Made by a program: the position numbers and the translations under genes
NCBI RefSeq assembly: GCF_002159555.1
Contig: NZ_NFIV01000004.1
Coordinates: 62,001-126,000, forward strand
Length of the DNA: 64,000 bases
DNA from: Muribaculum sp. An289
GTDB lineage: Bacteria; Bacteroidota; Bacteroidia; Bacteroidales; UBA932
Direction of reading: 5' to 3'
The notes under the pieces: generated by a model
What the model saw: the letters and a program-made list of their open reading frames with translations, nothing else
Database searches by the model: none
What the model was told of the DNA's origin: nothing
Shown: positions 4,624-58,341 of the stretch, piece by piece
Position numbering within the stretch: the first letter of the stretch is position 1
Layout: each line of letters begins with the position of its first letter

Positions 4624-5912
4624 TCCCCTTCTTCCTCTTGCGGTTCTTCTATGGTCACGAGCACCTTGTCTATGCGTGCGCCGTCCATGTCGGCCACCTC
4701 GAAATGGAAGTCTTTCCAGTCGACCTGTTCCCCGACCGTAGGGATGTGCTCCAGTTTGTCGAGAATCAGGCCTCCGACGGTGCTGTAGTCGGCATTTTCA
4801 TAAAGCTCCTCCCTTTCGAAATAGCAGAGGAAATCGTACATTGAGCATTGTCCGTCCACGAACCAGCCTTCATTGCCTTCGCGTTTGATGATGGTGTCTT
4901 CCTCGTGGTCGTCGGTCACGGCTCCGATAAGCCCGTCGAGTATGTCTTTCAGCGTGATGATTCCCTGGAAATCGCCGAATTCGTCACATACGAAGGCACG
5001 GCTGATTTTCTTGCGCTTCATCTCTTCGAGGACCGAGTAAACACTCATGTTTTCATGAAAATAGACCGGCTCGCGCACTATGTCTTCCCAACGGAAATCC
5101 TTCTTGTCTATGTTGAAAAACAGGTCTTTCAGCGATACGAGCCCGACTATGTGGTCCAGGTCACGTTTGGCCGCCGGGTACATTTCGTACATGTTGTCCC
5201 TGAGTATCGGAAGCACGCTTGAGATGTCATCGTCGGTGTCCACCCATACGACATCGCTCTTGTGTGTCATGAGCGAATTGATTTTCAGGTCTCCCATGAC
5301 GAAGACCCTTTGCATGATATCCTGCTCGACAGGCTGCACTTCCCCTTCTTCGGTTCCCTGCTGTATCATGGACTTGATTTCCTCTTCGGTGACTTTTTCC
5401 GCCGAATCGTGTATGCCGAGTATCTTGTAGAACATCCGCGTGCTCTTGGAAAGCAGCCATACGAAAGGGGATGCGATTATCGACAGGGCGTACATCGGCT
5501 TGGCCATCAGCTTGGTGATTTTCTCGGACGTGCTCATGCCTATCCTTTTCGGAAGGAGTTCTCCGAAAACGAGAGTGAGGTAGGTCACTATGATGACGAT
5601 GATAGTCTGTGCGAGCCCCGAGGCGAGGTTTACCGGTACGTTCCATCTGATGAACGCCTCCGAAAGCAGCTGCGCTATCTTGTTTCCCGAGAAAATACCG
5701 GTGAGGATACCGATTAACGTGATTCCTATCTGTATAGTCGAAAGGAAATTGTCCGGGTTGTCTATCAGTTTCAGTGCCGTCTTGGCCGAAGAATTGCCTT
5801 TGCCCGCATCCGAGGCTATGCTGCTGCGCCTTGCTGAAATAAGTGCTATTTCGGCCATTGCGAAGATGCCGTTCAAAAGGATGAGCCCGAGAATGACGAA
5901 AATTTCTTCCAT
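4620..5912 (-). CDS. CNNM/CorC-family membrane transporter (hemolysin-like, DUF21-CBS-CorC_HlyC)
   Basis: 430-residue inner-membrane protein. The N-terminal DUF21/CNNM domain (about 1-190) has four hydrophobic segments and the family pattern of a small AEIALISARRS motif near residues 20-31. Two CBS domains follow (about 205-335, including VSLKDLF and FQGIITLKDILDGLIG), then a CorC_HlyC domain to the end. Proteins of this design are linked to magnesium/cobalt efflux; substrate is not shown by sequence. A 41-residue membrane protein precedes it by 3 bases and a secreted protein overlaps its stop, giving a three-gene operon from the promoter at 6065-6072. Confidence 0.9.
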   Translation of the reverse strand: MEEIFVILGLILLNGIFAMAEIALISARRSSIASDAGKGNSSAKTALKLIDNPDNFLSTIQIGITLIGILTGIFSGNKIAQLLSEAFIRWNVPVNLASGLAQTIIVIIVTYLTLVFGELLPKRIGMSTSEKITKLMAKPMYALSIIASPFVWLLSKSTRMFYKILGIHDSAEKVTEEEIKSMIQQGTEEGEVQPVEQDIMQRVFVMGDLKINSLMTHKSDVVWVDTDDDISSVLPILRDNMYEMYPAAKRDLDHIVGLVSLKDLFFNIDKKDFRWEDIVREPVYFHENMSVYSVLEEMKRKKISRAFVCDEFGDFQGIITLKDILDGLIGAVTDDHEEDTIIKREGNEGWFVDGQCSMYDFLCYFEREELYENADYSTVGGLILDKLEHIPTVGEQVDWKDFHFEVADMDGARIDKVLVTIEEPQEEEGE

Positions 5913-9820: not shown

Positions 9821-11476
9821 ATGAAACGGATATTGTTGTTCTTTGTTTTGTCGACACTGCCGCTGGCCGGGCTGGCAACAGCGTTTTCAGCCTCCTGCCC
9901 GGCAGCCGTAACCGTCGCCATGTCTGCCCCCGGGCCGGCAAGTGCCGCTGAGGAAACCGCCGCTGAGACAACCGCCGCTGAGACAACCGCCGTTGAGGAA
10001 ACCGCCGTTGAAGCAACCGCCGCTGAGGCAACTGCCGTTGAAGAAAACACCGAACCCGCCGCTGCCACGGTTGCGGCGCCCTTTACGGTGGACGAGCGTT
10101 TCGAACTTGCCGGCATAGCGGCACGGCTTGCGGGCTATTATGAGTATTCGCGGGGGACGATTCCGGAATACGATGCCGCGATAAACGGTTATTTCTCTCC
10201 ACATCGGTTCCACAAACTGATAAACCATCTTAAAAATATCAGGGTGTCCAATTCGATAGGATATGACGCCATACCTTCCGCCACGAGGCTCCTTGTCATA
10301 AAGGACGGCGGAATCTCGCTCAACCCGGAAGCCGATGTGAAAAAACTCTGCGAGAATGATCCGAGGTGGACGGAAGAGGCCTTTGCAAGATTCGTCGAGT
10401 ACATGGACGATTTTTACAGGAAAACTGATTTTCATCGGTTTTTCGAGGAAAATTCGGCACTGTACCGCAAAGGGGAGGAGCTGGTCAACGGTTTCGCCGA
10501 GGTGGATACCTCGTGGTTCAGGTCGTTTTACGGCCGGCCCCTGAAGTCTCCGGAACTGTACATCTCGTTTGTAAACGGTCCGAGTAACTATGCCCTCACG
10601 GATTCCGGGACGGTTCCGGGATTCGGCATACTGATGGGGCTGTGGTTCGACCCGAATACAGTCACTCTGGAAAACATAAGCGTGCAGCAGAGGTGCGGCT
10701 TCACTGATGTGATAATCCATGAACTTTGCCACAATTTTACCAATCCGATAACGGGTAAATACATGAAAGAGCTTGCCGGTGCTTCGGACGTCATATTTTT
10801 CGAAGACGATGTCTGCGCATCCATGTCAGAGATAGCATACGGCGACCCTTCGATAATGACCCACGAGTGGCTCAACAATCTTTGCGAGATGATGTATTTC
10901 AGGGAGAAAGGCCTTCTCTACCCAGAAGAGTACGGACTGATAGGCTCGTATGAATCGGATGCATACGGATATTCCGCTTTTGTTACAGCCTATAAGGGAT
11001 TTTTCTGGTTCAATTCTACCATTGAGCTGATGGACAGGTTTTATGGACACAGGGACAAGTACCCGTATTTTGAGGATTTCATGCCGGAAATCGTCAGGTT
11101 TTATAAAAAATTTTCCAAAGACATCATGTCGGAAAGAGAAAAATATGAGGCTCTCTATCCGAGGATAACGGGTTTTGCCGTGGATTCGTCTGCCGCAGAT
11201 ACGGTAAAACTCCGCTTCACTTTTTCCGTCCCGATGAATCCTCGTTATTTCGATTCGAGAATCTACCCTTCGGGCTATGGCGGAAGTGATGTCCAGCCTC
11301 CGACCGGGACTGTCGCCGTCGGCTTTGAAGGCGACCGCACCTTTACCGTGAGTTTTGCAAAGGGGAATTTCGAAAAAGGCAGGACTTACGGCGGACTCGT
11401 GAACGGCTTCGGTTTCCGCAGCATGCGCCAGTATGCGATGATGGAAAATTATCCTTTCGAGTTTGCATATGAATGA
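9821..11476 (+). CDS. Secreted DUF4932-like protein with HELCH metallopeptidase motif
   Basis: 551 residues. Signal peptide about 1-24, then an Ala/Thr/Glu repeat (about residues 45-75, coded by imperfect 15 bp units ACCGCCGCTGAGACA) that its two paralogs lack. The DUF4932-like region begins at VDERFELAGIAARLAG. At about residue 303 it has IIHELCHNF, an HExxH zinc-binding signature, followed by a conserved EWLNNLCEM block and a C-terminal beta-rich part. A zinc-dependent peptidase role is inferred from the motif only. Tandem with a paralog 88 bases downstream; both are read from the promoter at 9728-9758 or have separate ones. Low-complexity linker length may vary between strains. Confidence 0.75.
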   Translation: MKRILLFFVLSTLPLAGLATAFSASCPAAVTVAMSAPGPASAAEETAAETTAAETTAVEETAVEATAAEATAVEENTEPAAATVAAPFTVDERFELAGIAARLAGYYEYSRGTIPEYDAAINGYFSPHRFHKLINHLKNIRVSNSIGYDAIPSATRLLVIKDGGISLNPEADVKKLCENDPRWTEEAFARFVEYMDDFYRKTDFHRFFEENSALYRKGEELVNGFAEVDTSWFRSFYGRPLKSPELYISFVNGPSNYALTDSGTVPGFGILMGLWFDPNTVTLENISVQQRCGFTDVIIHELCHNFTNPITGKYMKELAGASDVIFFEDDVCASMSEIAYGDPSIMTHEWLNNLCEMMYFREKGLLYPEEYGLIGSYESDAYGYSAFVTAYKGFFWFNSTIELMDRFYGHRDKYPYFEDFMPEIVRFYKKFSKDIMSEREKYEALYPRITGFAVDSSAADTVKLRFTFSVPMNPRYFDSRIYPSGYGGSDVQPPTGTVAVGFEGDRTFTVSFAKGNFEKGRTYGGLVNGFGFRSMRQYAMMENYPFEFAYE

Positions 11477-37652: not shown

Positions 37653-39627
37653 TTACATTTTTCTGTTGTCTAATCTCAGGTTCAGTTTCCCGTCGTATGT
37701 GAGGACTTCACGCTCTTTGTCATCGCATACGATGAACTCTGAAGGTACCATGATAAGGCTGTTACCCTCGGATGCTACCGAAGCGGCGGACTGGTTCATG
37801 GTTGCATTGTAGTACTCGTCGAACAGAGCGTAGTTTGTGGATTTTCCGTCTTCGGTCAATGTTATGAGGTGGGTGTACATTTCACCGAGGTTGTCATTCG
37901 CATCCTTGGCAATTGTAACGAGGGTGCTCATCTGGCCGAATGCCTGGTAGAACATAGGGGCAGCATCTCCCTTCTTGGCTGTCTTCTGTGCGAGAAGTGT
38001 CTGTGTATAGAGCTCTTCCTGGTCTCCGTACTGTGTCACGTCTCCTACGAAGAGTGCATAGTAGCATCCTGTAGCGGTTTCGTTGTATTCGAAATCTATG
38101 GCCACCAGGACAGGAGTGCTTTCATTGTGCATGATGGATTCATATTCCGGATTGTATGCAATCAGGTCATTGATGTCCCAGTAATTGTCGGCGCTGCCCG
38201 TTACGTATGCATCGGTATCTTCGCTCGGCAGGGTAGTGAATGGCTCTTTTGCCAGAGCGGAACTGTACGAATAGGTTCCCGTATCCACTCCGAATGCCAC
38301 TGCGTAGTAGTTCATTCCAGGAATCATGCCCGTAACCTCGGTTCCTACCACATCGCCCTGGTCGAGCATGAACAGTATGAGGAAGCTCATCTGCGATATG
38401 ATTTCGCTCATTATTTCTTCATCGGTCAGTCCTGATGTGAAGAATGATTCATCAATGGCAGTAGCGAGATATTTTGCCGACTTGTCTGACGGATAGACGC
38501 TCATTATTGCGCTTGTCTTTTTAGGCTCGACAACGATTTCGAAAGTAAGTCCGCCCGGTTCCGGATCTGTGTTTTCAGGAGTGGTGATTTCAGGGCCCCA
38601 ATAGAAATCTGTGGTATAATTCATTTCGTAATCCATTGCAACGGCAAAGGTAAGGAAGTGCGTTTCCGGAGTTACGGAATATGTGAATTCGTCCACTTTG
38701 TCTCCAGGATACAGTAAGAGAGGCAGCGCTATTTCCGGAGGTATGCCGGTGTCGGCGAGTTTTTCTTCAAGAAGTTCGAGGAAATACTCCTTCATGTTCT
38801 CCTTGTCGCCACCGCAATATGTATCGAGCTGTTCCTGGGACATGATTTGTGAGGTCCAGGTAAGTTCGGAATAATTGCAGCTTGAACGTACCATTGCCGA
38901 TGTGGCCGTGATTTGATCTTCAGGTACTTCAATGTTGAATGCGTTAGGATAATTCCCGCCTTTTGCCGGCTGTTTTACGATAACATCGAAGTGGAGAGGT
39001 TCTCCGCCTGCCCAGTTATATGTTACGGTAACCTTGCCTTCACGGGCTTCTTCTTTCTCGTTAGGATCTATCGATACGGCTACTTTCGCCTCTTCCACGA
39101 CAGTCGTAATCCATTCGTCGCTCTCGGCTTTCAGTTCACCGTCTTCCGTAGGATTTTCCAAAGTGAAGGTTATTTCGTAGTCGCCGCCTTCTTCATCGGC
39201 ATTGATTTCAGCCTCGCTTGTCAGTGTCAGTACAGGATCAGCACCCTTTGCAGCCTGTATCACTTTTACAGCAAAGCTCTGGTCTTTTCCACCCGAATAT
39301 GAATAGGTGAGGGTTAACCACGGCCTCACGTTCCTGCTCTTCACCATTTGCCGCTATATTGAAGGCCACAGTCCCGTCCTGAGAGTAATCGAAATCCGTA
39401 ATCCATATTTCCTCACCGTCAAGATTGGACTTGGCCTCGACGAAGCCGTCTTCAGCCGCATTTTCCAAAACATAGTTTATTTCCCCTTTGCTTTCGCCTG
39501 CCGGAACACGCAGGTCCCCGTCCATGCCAGACGAAAATTTCGGTGTAGGGTTTTCGACCGGATTACATCCTGCCAAAACTGCAACCGCTGCGGTAAGAAC
39601 CGCGCCAAATAGTGTAAAACGTTTCAT
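37653..39627 (-). pseudogene. BACON-domain lipoprotein interrupted by a one-base frameshift
   Basis: ATG at 39625-39627 gives a lipoprotein signal (LAGC, Cys at about 21) and a first BACON-like sandwich (WITDFDYSQDGTVAFNIAANG) up to EREAVV; the frame then goes to a stop at 39238. In the next frame the text resumes at LTLTYSYSGGKDQSFAVKV and runs to 37653 with a second BACON domain (WITTVVEEAKVAVSIDPN, VTVTYNWAGG) and a large C-terminal region of unknown type. One extra A in GTTAACC at about 39314-39318 accounts for it. Bacteroidota BACON lipoproteins are surface glycan- or protein-binding. Decay, reversible switch or sequencing error cannot be told apart. Confidence 0.8.
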
Positions 39628-39734: not shown

Positions 39735-40258
39735 TTGGACTATTACAGTGACAGATTTTTGTATATGAGCGATACGAAGGAATTCATCGGAGGTTATACG
39801 CCGGAGGATATCGGTAAGAACGGCTGGAGATTCCTTTTGGAGACCTGTGTCGAGGAAGAAAGGGAGGCGTTGAAGAAGGCCGTCGTTTTCATGGACGATT
39901 TTTATTCAAGGCTGCCGGTAGGGGACAAGAAGGATTATTCGGTATCCTTCAATTATACGATAAAATGCAAGGGCTGCAACAGGGTCATGCTGGTGCTGCG
40001 GAACGTGAAGCAGGGCAAACGCTGGGTCTACAACAAGACGGAAAACTGCTGGAGCATCTTTCGGAAATCCGGCTGTCCCAAATGGAAAAACTGACGATGC
40101 TGTATATAAGCAGCGGCATGACGAGCGACATGATGTCACGTGTAATGAACAAGTCGGTGGATACCATCAACGGCTATCGCAAATCGGTAATCGCCAAATT
40201 CGGCGTGCAGAACATCCATGAGGCCTTTACTATGGCGATGATACACAAACTGCTGTGA
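39735..40258 (+). pseudogene. LuxR-type HTH regulator, frameshifted and N-terminally short
   Basis: Two overlapping frames make one protein of the Bacteroidota PAS-like/LuxR group. Frame one: DYYSDRFLYMSDTKEFIGGY, EDIGKNGWRFLLETC and VMLVLRNVKQ. Frame two from about 40015: LSEIRLSQMEKLTMLYISSG and the HTH recognition part SVDTINGYRKSVIAKFGVQN. A one-base change in the CAGGGCAAACG stretch (about 40011-40020) causes the switch. Relatives have about 40 more residues before DYYSDRFLY, missing here. Lying head-to-head with the BACON gene and next to the fimbrial operon, it may have regulated either. Probably non-functional. Confidence 0.75.
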
Positions 40259-40270
40259 CGGCGCCTCCCG

Positions 40271-43144
40271 TTATTCGTCGATTATCGGGCGCACCGGGCG
40301 TGCCATAGTCTTAGTACCGGTGAATCCGAATGAATACACTTCTATTCCTCTCGGATAATCTTTGCGGATTACGAGGGTATATGCTGATGTCCCTCTGTCT
40401 ATGCATGACCAGTAATAGACTCCGTACATGGCCCAAAGTCCTCCGAGGTCTGCCTTGGCGCCGTCCTCTTCGTATCTCTCAAGCAGCCCCTGGCGGTCGG
40501 ATCTCTGGCCGGTCGCCGTCATGGGAATCGGGTCTCCTTCCATGCCCGGCTGGGGATAGCCTATATATTGGTTGTTCAGAGGGTTGTTAGGGACTTCGCC
40601 CTGCGATTTCCCGTTGAACGTGCCGATATTGTCTGCATTGCTTCCGTCGCCGGTATTCCCGTTTACCAGCACCGCAAAGGCCCTTGCAACCGGGACTTTG
40701 AATCCCCGCGGTGAAGGATCGTATATCGTCTTGGTGGATGTAGTCTTGTCCATGCCGGTTCCGCCAGAAGTGTCCCACAGGGTCGGTACGGGATCGCTGT
40801 CAAGCCAGTCGCCGTGACCGTCGCCTGAGCGGCGCGGATAGAAGACGTTCGGATTCTGTATTGCCGTACCGATGGAAACCCTTCCTTCCACGTATCTGTA
40901 TCCATAACTGTCTTCCCCCGTCTCATGGAGCCTGTAATCGGCATATCCGACATTTTCCCAGTTCCTCAAGGCGACAAGCGGGTCTTTGCGGCCCCACTGA
41001 TAATAAGTTGAGCCTACGTCCTTGTAGTTGAATTCGTAGCCGGTCTGTCTTACCTTGAGTTTACCCGTCTTGCCCGAGCCTGACTGGTAGAAGTCGAATT
41101 CCAGATCCTTCCCGTTATAATAGACTATCTTTCCGTCCACCCAGCCGAGGTTGCATTGCATCATCCGGTAAATCCGTGACGAGCCGTCTTTGTAATCGTA
41201 CAGATTGTGTATGTTTTCAGTGTAGATATTGCGTTCGGTGACCCAAATATGCCAGCTCCACATGATTCTACCCTGATTGTCCCGGACGGCGACCACCCCG
41301 TTGGCCTGCTGAAGGAAATTCCTGTCGATTGAAAATACGAGATAAGGGCCGTCGGCGCTTTTTGTGTCGAGATGTATGTCCTTGAACATGAAGAAGCCGT
41401 CGCTCCATACCAATACGCAGTCATGCGGAGTTCCTGAAATGTAAGGTCCCGATATCTGGTTTCCGACATAATCCTTGAAGTCAGAGTTCCATGAACTGTA
41501 ATTGACAGCCCCGTTCTTTATCGCGTTTCCGTAAACCAATGGCAGCTTGTAGGTCCCCGGGGCGTTCACGACATAGCAGTTGGCGGTCGTCCGGGCTATC
41601 GTGTTGCCGGATTCGTCATGCGTGGAAAGGTCGTAAGGATTGTCGGGACTTCCTTTCGGCTCGCTCGACATCAGTATCTCGTCTCCCGGATAATTCGTCT
41701 TCATCGTGTTTTTCGTGACTCCTACAGTGCCTTTGTCGCGGGCGGATTCGGTTCCCCCGCTGCCGCTTCCTGTAAAGGCCGTGACAGCTTCTTCGTATGA
41801 GACGGACTCTGAAGTATTGTACATTTCATCGGTTTCCGTTCCGCTGTTCCACTCCGCCGTCCAGCCGATATTTTCGGTAATGCTCGGGTCGGTCCTTCGG
41901 TAACGGTAGCTCGTTACATAATAATTTCCCTCGGTATTTCCGAGCGACAGTGTTATGAGCGGTGTCCCGTCCTGCACGGACCCGTTGCCTTCGGAGGTTA
42001 TCTCGAAAACATATACCCAGTTGACGGAGTCGGTGGAAATCTCGTATGTGTAAATTTTCCCTGCATCCCAGGTGCTCAGGTCTTCGTCTCCTGCGGCTGA
42101 TTTATGGGCCGGATTGTACAGCGGGCCTTCCAACAGGTATTCGGTGCCGTCGATTTCGAGTACAATCTCTATTTTAGCGCCGCTGATATCCTGGGGTATC
42201 ATCATGAAAGTAGTCTCGTCGGAACTTACCGGCTGTGTGCTCGTTCCGGTATTGTTTTCCACCGTAACATCGAATATCTGCGAAAAATCGGTCAGTTCTC
42301 CTTCGTGGGTCCACGCGAACGCGCCCCCTCCTCCGGTTTTGTCGACGGTATAGGTGCAGCTTCCGGCTTTGTACAGGTTTTTAAGGGCGATTTTTCTGAT
42401 GGTGCATTTGTTTACATCCTTGACCACGAACCTGATTCCCGAAAGGGCATGCTGGAAACGGAGCGGGACCGTCCCGTTAATCTCATTGCCTGCATCGGAA
42501 CGGGAAAAATCCGGGGTGTAGGCGAACATGATGTCCGGTTGGATTTCCGCATCATGGCCGTCTCCGGATACAGGCACGGAATAGGAGAATTTAATATTGC
42601 CATCGTCGTCACGGGCAATTGCCTGGTTTCCGGAAAAAACGGCCTGATTGCGGTAAGTGTATGGGGCGTATGCGTAAAAATCGAGAGGGGTTCCGTCTTC
42701 GGGCCAGAAACGGTCTCCTTCGCTCGATGACCAGACAGTGCCGGAATTGTTCCCGATTCTGTCATTGTCCATGTATATGCCGTCGCTTCCGGAGAGATAT
42801 GCCATGACTCCGAAATCGCTGTAATTGCTTCCGAAATTCTTACTGTTGATTGGTACGCCTTTGGTTTCGGCCTGTTGCCCCTTTATGGCCGATAGATTGG
42901 TTTTTATGTTTGGATGGAGATAGAGGGTATCTTTCCCGTCTTCACCGACTACGGTCAAAGGAGAGTCCTCGGCAGGCTGCTGTCTGCCGACATTTTCTTC
43001 AACCGGGATGGCCGATACCCCGAAGCTTATGGAATTGCCGTCCGCCTTCCTGCCGTCTATCAGCCTTTCCTTCGAGCAGGACATTACGGCCAGTATCGCC
43101 ACGGCCATTATGCCCAAGGCCGTGAATGCGCTGTTGCCTGACAT
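40271..43144 (-). CDS. Large fimbrillin-family lipoprotein, probable fimbrial tip protein
   Basis: 957 residues from ATG 43142-43144, preceded by AGGAG; signal peptide with lipobox VMSC (Cys23). The N-terminal part (about 30-420) is fimbrillin-like: SISFGVSAIP, GDRFWPEDGTPLDFYAYAPY and LRFQHALSGIRFVV. The second half carries a module with YDPSPRGFKVPVARAFAVL and a closing ARPVRPIIDE as found in long tip-type fimbrillins. Mature pilins of this kind are cleaved by a gingipain-like protease and added by strand exchange. Last gene of the four-gene fimbrial operon, so it should terminate the polymer. Confidence 0.85.
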   Translation of the reverse strand: MSGNSAFTALGIMAVAILAVMSCSKERLIDGRKADGNSISFGVSAIPVEENVGRQQPAEDSPLTVVGEDGKDTLYLHPNIKTNLSAIKGQQAETKGVPINSKNFGSNYSDFGVMAYLSGSDGIYMDNDRIGNNSGTVWSSSEGDRFWPEDGTPLDFYAYAPYTYRNQAVFSGNQAIARDDDGNIKFSYSVPVSGDGHDAEIQPDIMFAYTPDFSRSDAGNEINGTVPLRFQHALSGIRFVVKDVNKCTIRKIALKNLYKAGSCTYTVDKTGGGGAFAWTHEGELTDFSQIFDVTVENNTGTSTQPVSSDETTFMMIPQDISGAKIEIVLEIDGTEYLLEGPLYNPAHKSAAGDEDLSTWDAGKIYTYEISTDSVNWVYVFEITSEGNGSVQDGTPLITLSLGNTEGNYYVTSYRYRRTDPSITENIGWTAEWNSGTETDEMYNTSESVSYEEAVTAFTGSGSGGTESARDKGTVGVTKNTMKTNYPGDEILMSSEPKGSPDNPYDLSTHDESGNTIARTTANCYVVNAPGTYKLPLVYGNAIKNGAVNYSSWNSDFKDYVGNQISGPYISGTPHDCVLVWSDGFFMFKDIHLDTKSADGPYLVFSIDRNFLQQANGVVAVRDNQGRIMWSWHIWVTERNIYTENIHNLYDYKDGSSRIYRMMQCNLGWVDGKIVYYNGKDLEFDFYQSGSGKTGKLKVRQTGYEFNYKDVGSTYYQWGRKDPLVALRNWENVGYADYRLHETGEDSYGYRYVEGRVSIGTAIQNPNVFYPRRSGDGHGDWLDSDPVPTLWDTSGGTGMDKTTSTKTIYDPSPRGFKVPVARAFAVLVNGNTGDGSNADNIGTFNGKSQGEVPNNPLNNQYIGYPQPGMEGDPIPMTATGQRSDRQGLLERYEEDGAKADLGGLWAMYGVYYWSCIDRGTSAYTLVIRKDYPRGIEVYSFGFTGTKTMARPVRPIIDE

Positions 43145-43236
43145 GATATGCTTCTCCTTTAATCTCATAATTTTACTTTGTGACCGGGTGGGGACATTCA
43201 ACCCCGCCCGGCCTGTTATTCATGAACGCCTGTTTG

Positions 43237-44460
43237 TTAGTTGCCGGATTCTGGTACTTCGGCATCTATGTCGGTGGATGGAACTTCTACGAAGTCGTCT
43301 ACCGTCACTTCAAATGTAATCGGCACAAGTACTGGTTCCGGTTGAGGGTCGTCAGGGTCAGGATTGTATCCGCCGCCCTTGCCGAATACGAAGGTGTAGG
43401 TGTATTTCTTGCCCTGTTCCCAATTGAATGCAGCAGGGATGGCTACTTCCTTGTGTTCCGTAACGGTGCCCCAAAGAGGTACGTCCACGCTTTCATCGAA
43501 GGATTCTCCGCTGACATTGTATATGGTGCAGTTTACGAGGAAATATGTACCGTTGCTTTCGTTTCCTTCGTAGCCCGGATTCGCTACCGTTTCAGGATTC
43601 CATGCAGTGGTTGCCTGAGGAAGCAGGAGCAGGGCCTTTCCGTTATATTCATTATTGACAGTGGCATTGGTAGTGAGGTCTACAAGCGCATTGTTCCCTT
43701 CTACTACTATGTTGTCACCCAATTCGACAGGATATATTGCGGAACCTCCGGTCAGGCCGTCCCATTTTCCCCATGAACCGTCTTCATAGTTTATTGTATA
43801 TGAAAGGGAGCCGTCATGGTCGGCATCGGCGATGTTGTTGTCGGTGTCCGCCGTAGGGAATGCGAAAGTGTTTACATTTCCGACATTCATGATTCTTACG
43901 CCCGAAATCTCAACATAAAGGTTGGCATTGGTGTTCTTCGCATTGAAGACAATCTGCGAAAGTGCGTGGCGGAAGTTCAGTTCTACAGGAGACTGGCTTT
44001 CAGCATTGACAGCCTTGCTCTGGTTCTTCTTTACCGCATAAAGCAGGTCGTTCTGTGCAGTGACATCCGTAGGGACTTCGAAATCCACTATGGAAGCAGG
44101 TGCGGTCCCGTCTTCCGAAGCAGGGGTCCATTTGAAATAATTCCCGGCATTGACGTGTGCGTAGAAATCTACCGGAGCATCAGGCCAGAAACGAGTGCCG
44201 CTCTGGTTTTCCCAGGAGTTTTCGCCTTTGTTCACTATCAGGTCTCCGTCAATGTAGGTCTTGCCTTCGCTCATTGCGTAAACGCTGAACTGTGAAGGCA
44301 GGTTGTTGTTGCAATAGATGTCCGCTGCCTTTGTGGCGTTGTTGGCAACAATGTTGAATGAAATTTCGTCTCCGTCCCTGTTGACATCGACTGTTTCGCT
44401 TTTTGAGCAGGATGCTAATAAAAGAAGCACTCCTGCGCTGACAAATAAGATTTTTTTCAT
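43237..44460 (-). CDS. Fimbrillin-family lipoprotein, probable stalk subunit
   Basis: 407 residues, lipobox LASC at about 18. Fimbrillin hallmarks: DEISFNIVANNATKA, SGTRFWPDAPVDFYAHVN, VELNFRHALSQIVFNAK and the C-terminal FNWEQGKKYTYTFVFG. Size and compactness suit a repeated stalk subunit, in contrast to the 957-residue protein next to it. Exported to the outer membrane as a lipoprotein, then proteolytically matured and polymerised (family knowledge). Lies 92 bases upstream of the tip gene. Confidence 0.88.
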   Translation of the reverse strand: MKKILFVSAGVLLLLASCSKSETVDVNRDGDEISFNIVANNATKAADIYCNNNLPSQFSVYAMSEGKTYIDGDLIVNKGENSWENQSGTRFWPDAPVDFYAHVNAGNYFKWTPASEDGTAPASIVDFEVPTDVTAQNDLLYAVKKNQSKAVNAESQSPVELNFRHALSQIVFNAKNTNANLYVEISGVRIMNVGNVNTFAFPTADTDNNIADADHDGSLSYTINYEDGSWGKWDGLTGGSAIYPVELGDNIVVEGNNALVDLTTNATVNNEYNGKALLLLPQATTAWNPETVANPGYEGNESNGTYFLVNCTIYNVSGESFDESVDVPLWGTVTEHKEVAIPAAFNWEQGKKYTYTFVFGKGGGYNPDPDDPQPEPVLVPITFEVTVDDFVEVPSTDIDAEVPESGN

Positions 44461-44489
44461 TTTTTTATAAATAAAAGATTGAACTAAAA

Positions 44490-45431
44490 CTATAAAATTA
44501 TTTCTTCTTCAATGACTACCCAGTCATCCACGGCAGGGTCGTAGCCGCTTCCGCCTTCAATCGGTTCCGGAAGGTCGAGACCGTCGATGATTATGTGTAC
44601 GTGTCTGAAATCCGGGGCGTTGTGTACCTGTTCGGTCACGTCCAGCCTGTCGCCGGCCTTGAAACAGTATTTTGCCCCGTTGTCCATCACTGCATAGAAT
44701 GCCATGCGGTGCGGGTCCGGATTGTCGGTATGATGTCCGAATGTGTAGAACTGCCCCGTTATGGTCGACTGCCCGTCGGACTGCGCCCCGAAAGGCAGGG
44801 TTACCGGTTCGGTGCCGATTTCTTCCGTGCTGAAGGTAAGGGTGCCGGCCATTCCGGAAATGGTACCGCTCATCTGGGACAGGTGGGCGATGTTCTTTAC
44901 ATTGCGCACTTCGTAAGTGTAGGTGCAGACGAGTTCGTGCGGATACAGCGTTATGATTTCGGTATCGTCCGTCACGGTTATTTCGGTAACTGAACAGCCC
45001 CACATCATGTCGGGGCAGATGACTACCCGCTCATCTTCGGTACCCTCGGCCCTCGGGGCGTAACTTGCCGTGTTTCCGTATATCGGTTCGAGTACGCTTC
45101 CTTCCCTCGTATAGACCCCGTGGCTGTCGAAGTCATTGGAGTTGTAGAACTGTACTATTTCCGTGTCGTTGTTGTAGCAAAGCACGCTGTACGTTCCTGC
45201 CCGCAGTTCGATTTCGCCTCCGGAGATGTCCTTGAAGTCGAAACGCTGGCCTCCGTTCCCCTGGACCGGATAAAAATATACGCACATCCCGTCCGGAGAT
45301 GCATCCGGAGCGTCTTTCCAGTCGAATTGTATTTCCAGCGGTATTACGTGCGGATGCTGGAAGCACAGTTCCTTATGGATGCAGGAAGAGAGAAGTGCCA
45401 GGGCTGCAATAATCAAGATTGACTTTTTCAT
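44490..45431 (-). CDS. DUF5119-like lipoprotein of the fimbrial operon
   Basis: 313 residues, lipobox LLSSC near residue 16. Two beta-sandwich-like halves can be guessed (LEIQFDWKDAPDASPDGMCV in the first; LTFSTEEIGTEPVTLPFG in the second), similar to DUF5119/anchor proteins that accompany fimbrillins. Its start overlaps the end of the DUF3575 gene (ATGA), and the stalk gene begins 29 bases downstream. Probable role: anchor or accessory subunit limiting fimbrial length, inferred from operon position. Confidence 0.7.
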   Translation of the reverse strand: MKKSILIIAALALLSSCIHKELCFQHPHVIPLEIQFDWKDAPDASPDGMCVYFYPVQGNGGQRFDFKDISGGEIELRAGTYSVLCYNNDTEIVQFYNSNDFDSHGVYTREGSVLEPIYGNTASYAPRAEGTEDERVVICPDMMWGCSVTEITVTDDTEIITLYPHELVCTYTYEVRNVKNIAHLSQMSGTISGMAGTLTFSTEEIGTEPVTLPFGAQSDGQSTITGQFYTFGHHTDNPDPHRMAFYAVMDNGAKYCFKAGDRLDVTEQVHNAPDFRHVHIIIDGLDLPEPIEGGSGYDPAVDDWVVIEEEIIL

Positions 45432-46718
45432 TTCCTGCCTCCTTTGTCTCTGTTATAATTCTCGTGTCCCAACAGCCATACAAGGGATATTTCGATTTTC
45501 GTAGGGCCTATGTAGAACCGTTTTTTTGTAGCCTGCCATACGTAGCAGTTGTCCATCGGCAGGTATTCGTAGTAAAGTCCCCCGAAAAATCCTACGCAAG
45601 CTGAAAAATCGATGTTAAGGCGCCTTGCGACCGGGAGGGAATAGCCGTATTCTATTCCGGCACCGTAGTTTGCCCTGTCGAAGAGGCTTCCTCCCGGCTC
45701 GCCTCCCATCTGTCCGAGCCCCCCGACTTCGAAGTCGTAGGTCATGACTTGCCCGTATACGCCTATGTGGTGTCCGGTAAGGGGTTTTTCATTGGCCGCC
45801 TTTCCGAACCATTTCCGGACGGACAGCCCTCCTCCGTATATGCGCCAGTACCAGTGCGCATTGTCGTTTTTCCACCATCCGTACATCCAGTCTCCGGCGA
45901 TGCTCCAGTTCTTGCCGAGATAGAATTCCGCACCGATATTCGGTACGAGCAGCAAGTCGTAAAGCAGGTTGCTCTTTATGCCCATGTAAAACGGCTTTTT
46001 ATAAATGACTGGCGCCGGAGTCCTGTTCTTTATGGCCCCGGAAGGTGCGGATGGACGTGCTGCGGCAATCCCCGAAAACAGGGGCAATGCTATGGGGTTC
46101 CGCATCTTTTTGTAGTATAGGTGTACGCTGGAAGCACGCAGTTCTGGAAAGAGGTTCCGGTACATATAGCGGTAAGGCTCTCCTCCCTTGAATCTGGAAA
46201 GTCTTCCTACGTTGTTGTCTTCCAACCTTTCCCCTCCCAGCGAGCGGTCGGCGATGTCCCTGAGATATTCAAGGGTTTCTTCCCTGTATGGGACGTTCAT
46301 GTCGGCTTCAACCAGTTCAATCAGGCCCCACCAGTCCCGTCCGATGAAGTTGAAAGTCGTAAGGGAATCGGGAAGTTCCCCGAATTTTGAAAGGTATTCG
46401 AAAATTACCTTTGCGCGTTTCTCGGAAAGCCGCTTGTTCAAAGGAATCGTACCTTCCGGAGATGCTCCCCCTGTCACGTGTATCCGTGTCAGTACGTATA
46501 TCGAGTCGCTGTAACCCAATTGCAGGCTATCGGCTATCCTCTTTATGGAATTCCTGTTGTCTCCGATGGAAAGGTCCAGAACGGAATACCCTTGTCTGAA
46601 AAATATTTTTACGGAGTCCTCAACCTCTTGACCGTGAGAAAGAGAACATGTCAATAAGGTAAACAAAAGGGAAATTAAAGATTTCCCCCCCCCCCCTTAT
46701 ATGACTAAAACGTAACAT
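45428..46718 (-). CDS. DUF3575 outer-membrane protein with poly-G frameshift near its start (probable phase-variable OFF form)
   Basis: First gene of the fimbrial operon. The frame from 46666 to 45428 encodes an OmpA-like domain (VTGGASPEGTIPLNKRLSEK, about 50-100) and a DUF3575 barrel (KKPFYMGIKSNLLYDLLLVP to the C-terminus). No ATG starts that frame well; TTG at 46664-46666 would cut the signal peptide. ATG at 46716-46718 is followed by seven codons, a run of 12 G, then KSLISLLFTLLTCSLSHGQ, a complete signal peptide, but in another frame. The distance 46718-46666 is 52, so 11 or 14 G would join them without a stop: MLRFSHIRGGGKSLIS. As written the gene is out of frame. Confidence 0.8.
46685..46696 (-). 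repeat. G12 homopolymer inside the 5' coding region
   Basis: Twelve C on the plus strand, twelve G in the sense of the fimbrial operon, 22 bases after the ATG at 46718. Tracts of this length slip readily during replication. It is the longest homopolymer of G/C in the window. Confidence 0.85.
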
Positions 46719-46792
46719 AACTGTTTGATTTATATTGTGTTGTAGTTAGTTTTACGCCATTTGCAAATAAAATTGTCCAAATGAATTTGCCG

Positions 46793-46800
46793 CAAAAATA
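46793..46800 (-). promoter_or_regulatory. Promoter -7 box of the fimbrial operon
   Basis: Minus strand TATTTTTG, matching TAnnTTTG, 74 bases above ATG 46718. This supports a translation start upstream of the G tract rather than at 46666. Confidence 0.55.
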
Positions 46801-46877
46801 CATATTTTTTTATATTTTACCAAAAAAACGTCTGAAGAAACGTTAAAAAAAAACGGCTGGATAAATGGCTGAAAATT

Positions 46878-47030
46878 ACCTGGCTTTTCAAATTACTCGT
46901 TGGCTTTTCCAAATCCATTTTGTTTTCCAAGTTTACTTTCAAGTCTACTTCGTTTTCTAAGTTTAGCCGGCTTTCCCAAATTTAGCCTGGTTTTTTCCAA
47001 ATATACCTGGCTTTTTCCAATTTAGCCGAC
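46878..47030. repeat. Degenerate tandem repeat, unit about GGCTTTTTCCAAATTTAGC
   Basis: Seven or eight units 18-24 bases long, e.g. TGGCTTTTCCAAATCCAT, CGGCTTTCCCAAATTTAG, TGGCTTTTTCCAATTTAG, on the plus strand. Confidence 0.65.
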
Positions 47031-47182
47031 AGAAAAATTCACCAGTGCAGAAAATCTATCCGATTAAAAAATTTAGCTGTGTCATATATCTGCCATATAT
47101 CTGCCTTCATTCGTCCTCCTCCGTTCTTCATTCGTCCATCATTCGTCCTTCATCCGCTTTTCATCCTATTTTTTCTGAATTA

Positions 47183-47312
47183 CGGGGGAAAGTGCCACGG
47201 ATTCCCGGCAAAATGGTTCACTTTCCCCGGAAAAAATGGCGAAAATGGCGGTAAAATCAACATTTCCGGCGGGAAAGTGCCTCGAATTCCCGGCAAAATG
47301 GTTCACTTTCCC
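47183..47312. repeat. Pair of D-family hairpins
   Basis: 47183-47228 and 47269-47312, with spacer AAAAAATGGCGAAAATGGCG near-identical to that between the 9343 and 9426 copies, so the pair was copied as one unit. Confidence 0.85.
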
Positions 47313-47350
47313 CCAAAGGACGGATGAGGAATAGCGATAGGAGAATATTC

Positions 47351-47454
47351 AAAAGATACGTGATGTGGCTGCGCGCAGGAGCTATTCCGGCACGTCCGCC
47401 GATGAATAAAGATCTTGGTCTGCCGGCATGTTCTCCCGAAGGAAGAACTCTCCC
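47351..47454 (-). pseudogene. Decayed ~100 bp fragment of nqrF
   Basis: Closely resembles 49866-49968 within the intact nqrF: GATGTGGCTGCGC, TCCGCCGATGAA, GGTCTGCCGGCA and GGAAGAACTCTCC are shared in order, with scattered mismatches (roughly 85% by eye). No reading frame is kept. It lies 2.4 kb from its source on the same strand. Confidence 0.75.
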
Positions 47455-47565
47455 TCATCCCGATTGAGTCAATATGTTTGTAGTTCCGGAAAAATACGCC
47501 GGAAAAGGTATTGGTGAACTTTTCCGGCGCAAAGGGATTTGTTATGTTTTAAATAAGCGAGTCAT

Positions 47566-48172
47566 TCAATTGAAGAAATCTTCTGGTATGCAGCTGTGGT
47601 AAAGTCTTTTTTCCGGGTCTGTGGCCTTTGTCAGGGTCAGTTCCGACAATCCGGTTTCGTCCAAGGTCCTGGATTCGATGTGCCAGCCTGAAGGATCGCA
47701 CAATTCGTCGATGATGATTTTCATTTCCGGCGTTTCGTCGGCCCAGTCAGGAGGCATGCCGTTGTTGGTGAGAGCCTTTCTCATGAGGTCTCTTTCGAGT
47801 CTGAAATTGCCTTCTTGTAGACATCGCCCAAATCCTCATATTGCTTCAGGGCGTTTTCCCTCCATTCTATGGCCTTGCTGAAAAGAATCTGTCCATTTCA
47901 TAGTAATCCCCGAGCCAGTCGCACACATGTGCAATGTAGACGTTTGCTGTATTGGAGTCGAGGCCTGCTAGGAAAAGCTGTGCATAATCGGCGGCTTTAT
48001 CCCTGTCTTTCTCTTTGTTTTCGTGATAAATCTGGTATAATGCAATGTCAGCCCCGTTTATTCTGGATAGTTCGGCAATGGAATCCGTTGCCGCTTCGTC
48101 CATTGCAGCATGGGCTGGTAGTGCCATCAGCGCCAAAGTGTACAGCAGAGATATTGTCAGGTAGCGTTTCAT
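47566..48172 (-). pseudogene. Secreted protein gene broken by two frameshifts
   Basis: ATG 48170-48172 opens a signal peptide (MKRYLTISLLYTLALMALPA) and a helical stretch (IYHENKEKDRDKAADYAQLF, HVCDWLGDYYEMDRFF) that stops at 47867. The text continues in a second frame (KAIEWRENALKQYEDLGDVY) and then a third (RLERDLMRKALTNNGMPPDW to IPEDFFN at 47566). The helical pattern resembles tetratricopeptide units; I do not recognise the family. Two separate shifts make a genuine relic more likely than a base-calling error. Confidence 0.65.
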
Positions 48173-48446
48173 GGACAACAAATTTACGAAATTTTTGATA
48201 AATGCGAAATGTGATATGTTGTTGTGTGAACTGTGAACTATGACTGTGAACTGTGACTGGGCTGATGTAGCGGTTCTGAATGCAACGGGCTTGAATGCGG
48301 CGAGCTTGAAATACAATGAGCTTGAATGTAACGGGCCCAATGCCGTCATGCTCAAGAGTGGCGAATTTCAAGCGGATAAATTTCAATTACGGGGTTCACT
48401 CCCCCTGTGTAGGGCACCAGTAGTGCCCTGTAGTGTATGGACCATA

Positions 48447-48875
48447 GGGGAAAGTGCCGTGAATTTGCAGGAATTTGGTTCACTTTCCCCCAAAGGCCGG
48501 ATGAGAAATAGCGTTAAGAACAATGTATGTCCGTTGTACTGGAATATGGCTGGGGGAAAGTGCCACTGATTCGTGGGGATTTGGTTCACTTTCCCCCAAA
48601 GGTTGAATGAGAAATAGCGTTATGAGCAATGTATGTCCGTTGTACTGGAATGTAGCTGGGGAAAGTGCCACAGATTCGTGGTAAATTGGTTCACTTTCCC
48701 CCAAAGGACGAATGTGAAATAGCGTTAGGAACAATGTATGTCCGTTGTACTGGAATGCGGCTGGGGGAAAGTGCCACGAATTCGTGGAAATTTGGTTCAC
48801 TTTCCGGAAACAAACAACGAAAAATGGCGGGAAAGAGTACCCGAAAAATTTGTTGAAATACGGTTCACTTTCCCG
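48447..48875. repeat. D-hairpin tandem array with 105 bp period
   Basis: Hairpins start at 48447, 48552, 48657 and 48762, exactly 105 bases apart, with a degenerate fifth at 48827-48875. Each 105 bp unit is a 44 bp hairpin plus a 61 bp spacer (AAAGG..GAATGAGAAATAGCG, then GTATGTCCGTTGTACTGGAA) that is itself conserved. Confidence 0.9.
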
Positions 48876-48889
48876 GCTTCTTCGGCTGA

Positions 48890-49053
48890 TAAGTAAACGT
48901 AGCGGAAGGCCCGGTGCAGGCACTTTTGCAATGAGCTGAATATCAATACACTAAAAAACGAAAGTGCACATTTCGAAAGTTTTAAACGTCCGAAATGTGC
49001 GCCCGCTTTACTAACAAACTGATTATCAATATATTCAAAATCGCCATGCACCG
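48890..49053. repeat. Palindromic repeat family B, copy 2
   Basis: Same order of parts as copy 1 at 8734: AAGTAAACGTAGCGGAAGG, GGTGCAGGCACTTTTGCAA, GAATATCAATACACT, hairpin GTGCACATTTCGAAAG...CCGAAATGTGCGC, CTGATTATCAATATATTC, CATGCACC. In both copies it directly follows D hairpins or lies near them. Confidence 0.8.
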
Positions 49054-49167
49054 CCAGTTCCAAAATCACATGGAAAACTTTCACTTCTCTGGTGAGCGGT
49101 ATCTCTAAGCCTTACATGTCAATCGATAAATTTCAAACTACATCAATTTCAAGCGGTTTCTAAAAAA

Positions 49168-49208
49168 GCAAAAAAAGAAGCCGCTCCAAAATGACTTTTG
49201 GAACGGAC
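49168..49208 (-). terminator. Probable terminator of the nqr operon
   Basis: On the minus strand CCGTTCCAAAAG...TTTTGGAGCGG forms an 11 bp stem followed by CTTCTTTTTTTGC. It lies 309 bases past the nqrF stop, so the minisatellite is inside the transcript. Confidence 0.6.
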
Positions 49209-49214
49209 TCCTCT

Positions 49215-49516
49215 TTTGTATTCTGTTTCCGAGATGCTGTTTCGAAAACTGTTTCAGAAATGTTGTTTCAGAAAAACTGTCTCAGAAAAACTGTCTCAGA
49301 AAAACTGTCTCAGAAAAACTGTCTCAGAAAAACTGTCTCAGAAAAACTGTCTCAAAGAAGCTATTTCCGAAATGCAGTTTCCAAAAACTGTTTCTAAACG
49401 TTGTTTCCGAAACACTATTTCAAAAAATGCTGTTTCAGAAAAATCAACTCCCGAAAAGCTATCTCCGAAAAATCAATCCTCGAAAATCAATCCTCGAAAA
49501 ATCAACCCTCCGAAAA
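49215..49516. repeat. Minisatellite in the nqr 3' untranslated region
   Basis: Six perfect 14 bp units CAGAAAAACTGTCT at 49269-49352, within about 300 bases of looser CTGTTTCAGAAA / TCCGAAAAATCAA units. It begins directly at the nqrF stop codon. Confidence 0.9.
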
Positions 49517-50776
49517 TCAACCTCCGAAGTCGTCGAAGAGTATGCTTTCCTTAGGCACTCCGAGCGAATCGAGCAGATCCAGTACGGATTTGGTCATCAT
49601 AGGAGGACCGCACATAAGGTACAAAGCATCTTCCGGTGCTTCGTGGTTTTTCAGATAAGTCTCATACAGTACATTGTGTACGAATCCCGGAGTATATGCC
49701 ACTCCAGCGGCATCAGCCTCTGGATCCGGCCTGTCGAGGGCCAGATGGAACTTGAAGTTAGGGAATTCCCTTTCTATTTCATGATAGTCTTCAAGATAGA
49801 ATGCTTCCTTCAGGCTACGCGCGCCGTAGAAGAAATTGACTTTCCTCGTTGTCTTTTCCGTCTTGAAAAGATGCATGATGTGGCTGCGCATAGGAGCCAT
49901 TCCTGCACCTCCGCCGATGAAGATGAGCTCCTGGTCTGCCGGCAGGTTCTCCGGAAGGAAGAACTCTCCGTAAGGGCCGGATATCGTTACCTTGTCGCCC
50001 GGTTTCAACGAATAGATGTATGACGAGCATACGCCAGGGTTCACAGGCAGGAATTTCTTCGTAGCCCTGTCGATAGGAGGGGTTGCTATGCGGACATTCA
50101 GTTTGATGATGTCGCCCTCGGCCGGATAGCAGGCCATACTGTAAGCCCTTAGGGTAGGGGTAGGGTTAACCATCTTCAAATCGAATACTCCCATCTTTTC
50201 CCAATCGGCCCTGTATTCCGGATCCACGTCTATATCCTTGTAGTCCACGGTAATGGCCGGAACGTCCACCTGGATATATCCGCCGGATTTGAAGTGCAGG
50301 TGCTCTCCTTCAGGGAGTTTGACAACGAATTCTTTTATGAAGGTAGCCACATTGCGGTTGGAAACGACTTCGCATTCCCATTTCTTTACGCTGAGGGCGG
50401 ACTCGGAAATGACTATTTTCAGGTCTTCCTTGACTTTCACCTGGCAGCCAAGTCTCCAGTGGTCGGCAATCTGCTTCCTGTTGAAGAAGCCGGTTTCCGT
50501 CGGGAGTATTGTGCCGCCGCCTTCAAGAACACGGCATTTGCACTGTCCGCAGCTTCCTTTTCCGCCGCAGGCCGAGGACAGGAAAATCTTCTGATCGGCC
50601 AGGGTGGCGAGAAGCGATGCCCCAGGATTTACTTCAATCTCTTTCTTACCGTTGTTGATGTCTATTTTGACCTTCCCCGACGGGGTCAGTTTTACTTTGA
50701 TGAACAACAGTACAGCTACAAGGACGAGCGTTACTATCGTAATGGCGATAACCGCCGATATAAGTGTTGTAAACAT
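49517..50776 (-). CDS. nqrF: Na+-translocating NADH:quinone reductase subunit F
   Basis: 419 residues. Entry point for electrons: NADH to FAD to a 2Fe-2S centre. One N-terminal membrane helix (about 4-26); ferredoxin-like domain with Cys70, Cys76, Cys79 and Cys111, the same four positions as the Vibrio cholerae protein; FAD site RAYSMACYP (about 213); NADH site and CGPPMM near the end. Last gene of the operon. A minisatellite starts right behind it and a decayed copy of part of this gene lies 2.4 kb away. Confidence 0.96.
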   Translation of the reverse strand: MFTTLISAVIAITIVTLVLVAVLLFIKVKLTPSGKVKIDINNGKKEIEVNPGASLLATLADQKIFLSSACGGKGSCGQCKCRVLEGGGTILPTETGFFNRKQIADHWRLGCQVKVKEDLKIVISESALSVKKWECEVVSNRNVATFIKEFVVKLPEGEHLHFKSGGYIQVDVPAITVDYKDIDVDPEYRADWEKMGVFDLKMVNPTPTLRAYSMACYPAEGDIIKLNVRIATPPIDRATKKFLPVNPGVCSSYIYSLKPGDKVTISGPYGEFFLPENLPADQELIFIGGGAGMAPMRSHIMHLFKTEKTTRKVNFFYGARSLKEAFYLEDYHEIEREFPNFKFHLALDRPDPEADAAGVAYTPGFVHNVLYETYLKNHEAPEDALYLMCGPPMMTKSVLDLLDSLGVPKESILFDDFGG

Positions 50777-57891: not shown

Positions 57892-58341
57892 TTCCCTGAA
57901 TACCGGAGCTGTTTCTTCATGATTCCGGGAAAGTGCACCAAATTCGCGACAGACTGGTTCACTTTCCGGTTTTCCGGCGAATAATCACGGTGGATACCGC
58001 CGTCAAACGGTGTCCCCGGTCCTTGCATTCATTCATAGTCCTTGCATTTATACCGTCGCGTGCGGCCCCGAATCTTTTTCCCCCCCCCGAGAAAAATTCT
58101 TAAACAACTTCTCAAAAAAAACATGTAAAATTATTTTTCCGTAAAAAAAATGTATTTTTGAAAAAATATTTTTTATGATTATTACTGAACAAATAATACT
58201 TTCAGTTATTCTGATAGCTGGAAATATCGACTTCAGCACTTTCGTTTCCGAATAGTTCTCCCTGTTCGGTGTGTTTTTCTTAATAACGTGTACTCTGACC
58301 GGAAACGATTGTAACATATTGATTTATAAAAACATACTGTT
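57892..58341. other. Gene-free region with a D hairpin, a partial C core and a C9 tract
   Basis: D hairpin at 57926-57968 (CCGGGAAAGTGC...GGTTCACTTTCCGG), possibly acting as terminator for the helicase gene; a partial C-family core at 57975-58005; C9 at 58080-58088 within TTTTTC9GAGAAAAA; then AT-rich leader of the next gene. Confidence 0.6.
57926..57968. repeat. D-family hairpin, solo copy
   Basis: Same arms and ATT..GGTT loop edge as the other D copies, 34 bases past the helicase stop. Confidence 0.8.

Follow-up and report, generated by a model that had tools for sequence, protein, structure and literature searches.

A poly-G tract between start codon and signal peptide as a candidate translational switch of a fimbrial operon in Bacteroidales

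How is the first gene of a fimbrial operon translated when its long reading frame offers no start codon? The question is raised by a locus in Muribaculum sp. An289, within a 64,000-nucleotide stretch (contig NZ_NFIV01000004.1, positions 62,001 to 126,000) that was analysed as a whole and is called the window here; positions refer to it unless another contig or locus is named. An earlier note on this DNA had claimed that the frame at 45428-46666 has no good start, and indeed it has no ATG of its own or upstream in the same frame, its stop-to-stop opening lying inside a run of G residues (GGGGKSLISLLF..., GGGGKSLISLLFTLLTCSLSHGQEVEDS...). On the minus strand we found, in this order, a promoter, a leader, an ATG (46716..46718), TTACGTTTTAGTCATATAA, a tract of 12 G in the assembly (G12, 46696-46685) and then AAATCTTTAATTTCCCTTTTG. 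The ATG has an A-rich leader 5′ of it and opens the sequence MLRFSHIR, and the distance from its A to the tract (for a locus of this kind, about 8 or more G/C after the start codon in the translated 5′ region) is 22 nt. The TAnnTTTG box that had been placed above this ATG is real: a pattern match at 46793..46824 (minus strand) comprises a −33 TTTG, a 20-nt spacer and the −7 element TATTTTTG, a Bacteroidales-type promoter. A search of the window for TTTG-20 nt-TAnnTTTG gave 7 matches where 1.2 were expected. Beyond the tract the open frame runs uninterrupted for 412 codons and includes a signal peptide core, KSLISLLFTLLTCSLSHG (46631..46684, minus strand), which aligns with the signal peptides of orthologs. 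Inspection of the sequence between the tract and the signal peptide revealed no usable start. Just after the tract, its 3′ half and ATTTCCCTTTT (46665-46691, minus strand) can form an 11-bp hairpin (GGGGGGGAAAT/ATTTCCCTTTT) that may influence translation or slippage; Rfam gave no match within 44000-50000. The second G/C run of the window, 9 residues long (58080-58088), is apparently intergenic.

Subsequently, the reading frame was computed from ATG 46718 for tract lengths of 9 to 15. With 11 or 14 G the frame is open from the ATG to 45428 and yields proteins of 429 and 430 aa, respectively, while 9, 12 and 15 G yield peptides of 31-33 aa and 10 and 13 G peptides of 13-14 aa, so that the tract length modulo 3 sets full-length protein or early stop. 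The coordinates and arithmetic of the earlier note, which had put the signal peptide one base out of phase with the ATG across 12 G, were thus correct, as was its expectation for 11 and 14 G. Since the assembled 12 G is out of frame, the assembled state of the gene (gene 1) is OFF, and the tract would act as a slipped-strand switch that is ON at 11 or 14 G.

Gene 1 (45428..46684, minus strand) encodes, according to Pfam and an AlphaFold model, an N-terminal OmpA-like periplasmic domain and a C-terminal DUF3575 8-strand β-barrel. The Pfam match to DUF3575 (PF12099) has an E-value of 9.8e-35, and that to OmpA, at 5e-4, lies below the curated cut-off of that family. In the model, computed with 26 relatives as input (pLDDT 80, pTM 0.47), structure comparison matched the N-terminal α/β domain with periplasmic peptidoglycan-binding OmpA domains and the C-terminal barrel with OmpW and NspA. 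Judged from the modelled fold, the product most likely sits in the outer membrane, is anchored in the periplasm and, as such, needs a signal peptide. The ATGA coupling of genes 1 and 2 that had been described before was found at 45431-45428, where the start of gene 2, encoding a DUF5119 lipoprotein by Pfam (44490..45431, minus strand), overlaps the stop of gene 1. It is followed on the same strand by gene 3 for a fimbrillin-like (Mfa_like_1) lipoprotein (43237..44460) and gene 4 for a large fimbrillin-like (Mfa_like_1) protein (40271..43201), both taken from the open reading frame list and Pfam; the product of gene 4 is, from its position, the probable tip or adhesin. With two Mfa_like_1 genes and a DUF5119 gene together, this is by definition a Bacteroidales fimbrillin (FimA/Mfa-like) operon, and the order DUF3575-DUF5119-Mfa-Mfa is also present at two loci with homologs of gene 1 (L091 and L098).

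The orthologs of gene 1 indicate where translation would normally begin. Most of them have no tract, and those in G061/L091, L093 and L058 (52-70% identity) possess a plain M-K-type signal peptide. In the alignment, ortholog start codons fall onto the glycine codons of the G12 tract; the tract therefore occupies the normal start site and translation must begin upstream. The frame after the tract is about 70% identical to the orthologs and keeps the conserved residues. Two homologs have tracts of their own. The closer one (L220, genome G820 of another genus) is 71% identical to the gene 1 protein across 401 residues and carries, independently of G12, an in-frame G9 within its signal peptide (MCKFSRIIPIILVSVLTLC-GGG-YNCLSAKEVKDS). 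The more distant one (L098, in a record named Bacteroidales bacterium) has two tracts, a G10 upstream near the promoter (5504-5513) and a G11 in the coding region (5877-5887), the latter separating the signal peptide, out of frame, from a frame that begins with an ATG; no close relative of this locus was present among 399 family genomes. In addition, further DUF3575 genes have a tract in the inter-domain linker (L224, with broken frames, and L249; one such gene is split by a C9), at the 3′ end (L248), upstream (L233 and L063) or, as a G9, at the 5′ end (L080). Because one gene family thus has tracts at different sites in different genomes, these sequences point to selection on switching and not to accident. 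The N-terminus MLRFSHIRG..KSLIS was not found in the other genomes examined, nor was a close ortholog of gene 1 in genomes of the same genus, and scanning viral contigs for this exact locus gave no match.

To place the tract in its genome, G/C runs were counted. Runs of exactly 7, 8, 9, 10, 11 and 12 occur 8, 7, 6, 9, 0 and 2 times, respectively, a flat tail with 24 runs of at least 8 and 11 of at least 10, and by the number of runs of at least 10 this genome ranks first among 149 genomes from the order. In the window, runs of 3, 4, 5 and 6 number 1008, 233, 35 and 3, an approximately 7-fold drop per added base. Extrapolation of this drop to the genome gives about 0.07 runs of at least 10, against the 11 present. 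Under a first-order Markov model about 8 such runs would be expected, together with 300 and 81 runs at lengths 7 and 8; as the latter are far overpredicted, it is a poor null. Given this prediction of about 8, the number of runs alone is nevertheless weak evidence, and the argument rests on how the tail is shaped and on where the tracts lie. At least 7 frame breaks at poly-G, gene 1 included, were identified by frame inspection with Pfam and NCBIfam, mostly in surface or envelope genes. A lipoprotein gene at C1:239728 (L013, 3729-3738) repeats the layout of gene 1, with an ATG, 25 nt, a G10 and a signal peptide out of frame, and a broken BACON-like lipoprotein gene (C33:172249; weak Pfam match) has a C12 right after the lipobox Cys. 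Two G10 tracts 450 bp apart (C12:218366-218825) break adjacent acyltransferase genes: in the acyltransferase-3 gene (C12:218366; L011, 13367-13376) the two halves, read in different frames, cover profile positions 4-248 and 241-324, and in the hexapeptide acetyltransferase gene (C12:218816; L011, 13817-13826) the tract is followed by an immediate stop. Furthermore, an MBOAT acyltransferase gene is broken at a G9 (C31:165253) and an MltC-like lytic transglycosylase gene by a G10, with a G9 adjoining the promoter (C15:11667), while a lipoprotein gene at C12:185742 has a G9 in the signal peptide in frame. Several further tracts are intergenic or without clear assignment.

Similar tracts were seen in related genomes. 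G023 and G118, of another genus, have tracts of 9-11 residues at lipoprotein signal peptides, SusC-type receptors and hybrid two-component sensors, and inspection by hand found part of them in frame and part out of frame. Across this genome and its relatives, about 8 of 26 tract genes are in frame, near the one third expected for random phase, a figure that is indicative only, because the tract genes were picked by eye. The clearest case is a difference in length between species in Reg_prop/Y_Y_Y hybrid sensor orthologs that are 70% identical and share the tract site, the one in G023 (L163) having G9 and an open frame and the one in G118 (L172) G10 and a broken frame; the latter came from the tract survey, and a genus-wide ortholog search with the sensor from L163 found no further close copy. 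Within the family, 122 of 200 sampled genomes contain at least one run of at least 10. This family within the Bacteroidales probably has, as a whole, a genome-wide poly-G phasome independent of DNA inversion, whose targets would be fimbriae, lipoproteins, SusC receptors, polysaccharide O-acyltransferases and hybrid sensor kinases, with tracts that arose repeatedly in one fimbrial gene family.

The proposal of the earlier note, that the layout is that of a slipped-strand switch, is supported by the ATG starts of the orthologs, the tracts that two homologs have of their own, the recurrence of tracts and the one length difference between species. As far as can be judged from sequence, G12 is very probably a translational slipped-strand contingency locus within the poly-G set of this genome and related genera. 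Transcription of the operon would begin at the TTTG/TAnnTTTG promoter and its translation at ATG 46718. At replication, slipped-strand mispairing would shift the tract by ±1 G heritably and, presumably, reversibly. At 3n+2 G (11, 14) the ribosome would enter the signal peptide in frame, and the OmpA-like/β-barrel protein of the fimbrial system would be exported to the outer membrane, while at other lengths only a peptide of 13-33 aa would be made and gene 1 would be OFF. In the OFF state the expression of the ATGA-coupled DUF5119 and fimbrillin genes may drop through polarity, and fimbriae may be lost. The poly-G loci of this genome and related genera would act likewise on fimbriae, lipoproteins, polysaccharide acyltransferases, SusC-type receptors and hybrid sensor kinases.

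Other explanations were weighed against this one. Gene 1 might be a frameshifted pseudogene in a fimbrial locus that is being lost, its tract being accidental. The assembled frame is OFF, and two more frame breaks without long tracts lie 6-7 kb downstream: a BACON-type lipoprotein gene (37653-39627, minus strand) appears to be shifted by one base near 39312, where a short C run lies (ORFs 39238-39627 and 37653-39347), and a LuxR-type regulator gene (GerE domain; 39735-40258, plus strand) beside the fimbrial locus apparently occupies two frames split near 40045. As these breaks have no long tract, local decay or assembly error is possible there. In gene 1 itself, however, the 412-codon frame is intact with its conserved residues and its identity of about 70% to orthologs, and independent tracts occur in orthologs and in many other surface genes, which makes decay improbable. 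The same two suspect breaks, and the proneness of homopolymers to error, would also accord with a sequencing or assembly error in which the true tract has 11 G and gene 1 is constitutively on. Such an error leaves unexplained why a G11 should stand in place of the start-codon region and why signal-peptide tracts exist across genera, with tracts in all phases; moreover, a genuine G11 would still be prone to slip, and we consider this account slightly less probable still.

RNA polymerase slippage can arise at long homopolymers, and slippage of the polymerase or of the ribosome on a fixed G12 could give some in-frame product, setting a level of expression and not a heritable switch. The hairpin GGGGGGGAAAT/ATTTCCCTTTT directly after the G run would fit this, but tracts of 8-13 residues occur in all phases and two orthologs differ by G9 versus G10, which fits a heritable change of length better, and such slippage as the whole explanation is very unlikely. 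Least credible is a start at TTG 46666 with the tract as leader only: this codon is chosen by mechanical ORF callers, yet it lies inside the hydrophobic core and would destroy the signal peptide that orthologs have. The preferred reading remains the heritable switch by tract length at G12.

In Neisseria, a poly-G run in the signal-peptide-coding region of the pilus-tip protein genes pilC1 and pilC2 decides by its frame between ON and OFF. Gene 1 resembles them in that it encodes an exported protein of a pilus system and has a G run at the signal peptide, with expression set by frame, and differs in that its OmpA-like and DUF3575 barrel protein is unrelated and belongs to another phylum, that the pilus type is FimA/Mfa-like of the Bacteroidales and that gene 1 heads an operon with coupled downstream genes. 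Fimbrial phase variation in Bordetella depends on a poly-C tract in the fim promoter; both cases concern a G/C homopolymer at a fimbrial locus, but the Bordetella tract alters promoter spacing and transcription, whereas G12 would act on the reading frame. Frame switching at poly-G is well known in Neisseria, Campylobacter and Helicobacter (PMC5953494, PMC6321876, PMC2823697), and their phasomes (PMC6321876, PMC2823697, PMC5953494) share with the present set the genome-wide homopolymers, the surface and glycan genes and the mixed phases, while the present set lies in a Bacteroidales genome and, in relatives, includes SusC and hybrid-sensor targets. For Bacteroides, the passages found in a 2025 review describe phase variation by inversion systems only (PMC11868660). 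The invertible promoters treated there concern the same order and the same target classes (surface structures, SusC/SusD); they act on transcription through recombinase-driven DNA inversion at inverted repeats (PMC11868660), whereas no inverted repeats flank the G12 promoter. In 46400-48600 we detected only two pairs, both upstream of the promoter, so that promoter inversion was not supported and the earlier suggestion of a different mechanism held. For a B. fragilis acetyltransferase with one extra C in a run of 4 C, slippage was raised merely as a possibility (PMC3090145). In a search of the open literature no account of phase variation by homopolymers in Bacteroidales turned up, an absence that is weak evidence. 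The mechanism is of a known kind; what appears to be new is the lineage, the type of fimbria and how broad the set of targets is.

Phase variation in Bacteroidales has been understood almost wholly as DNA inversion, and the detection tools seek inversions. If our reading is true, genes now annotated as pseudogenes because of a frameshift are in many cases switches, and existing short-read data could be used to measure how fimbriae and nutrient receptors switch in a gut community. That tracts recur in the same fimbrial gene suggests that turning this surface structure on and off is under strong selection. Two tracts also accompany a gene at L009 (3001-3010 and 3312-3320), one adjoining the promoter and one coding, and the two-tract genes at L009 and L098 suggest, by their arrangement, that transcriptional and translational switching are combined. 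Finally, at L015 a G10 (10541-10550) stands immediately upstream of a −7-like box, TAATTTTG, and possibly changes promoter spacing.
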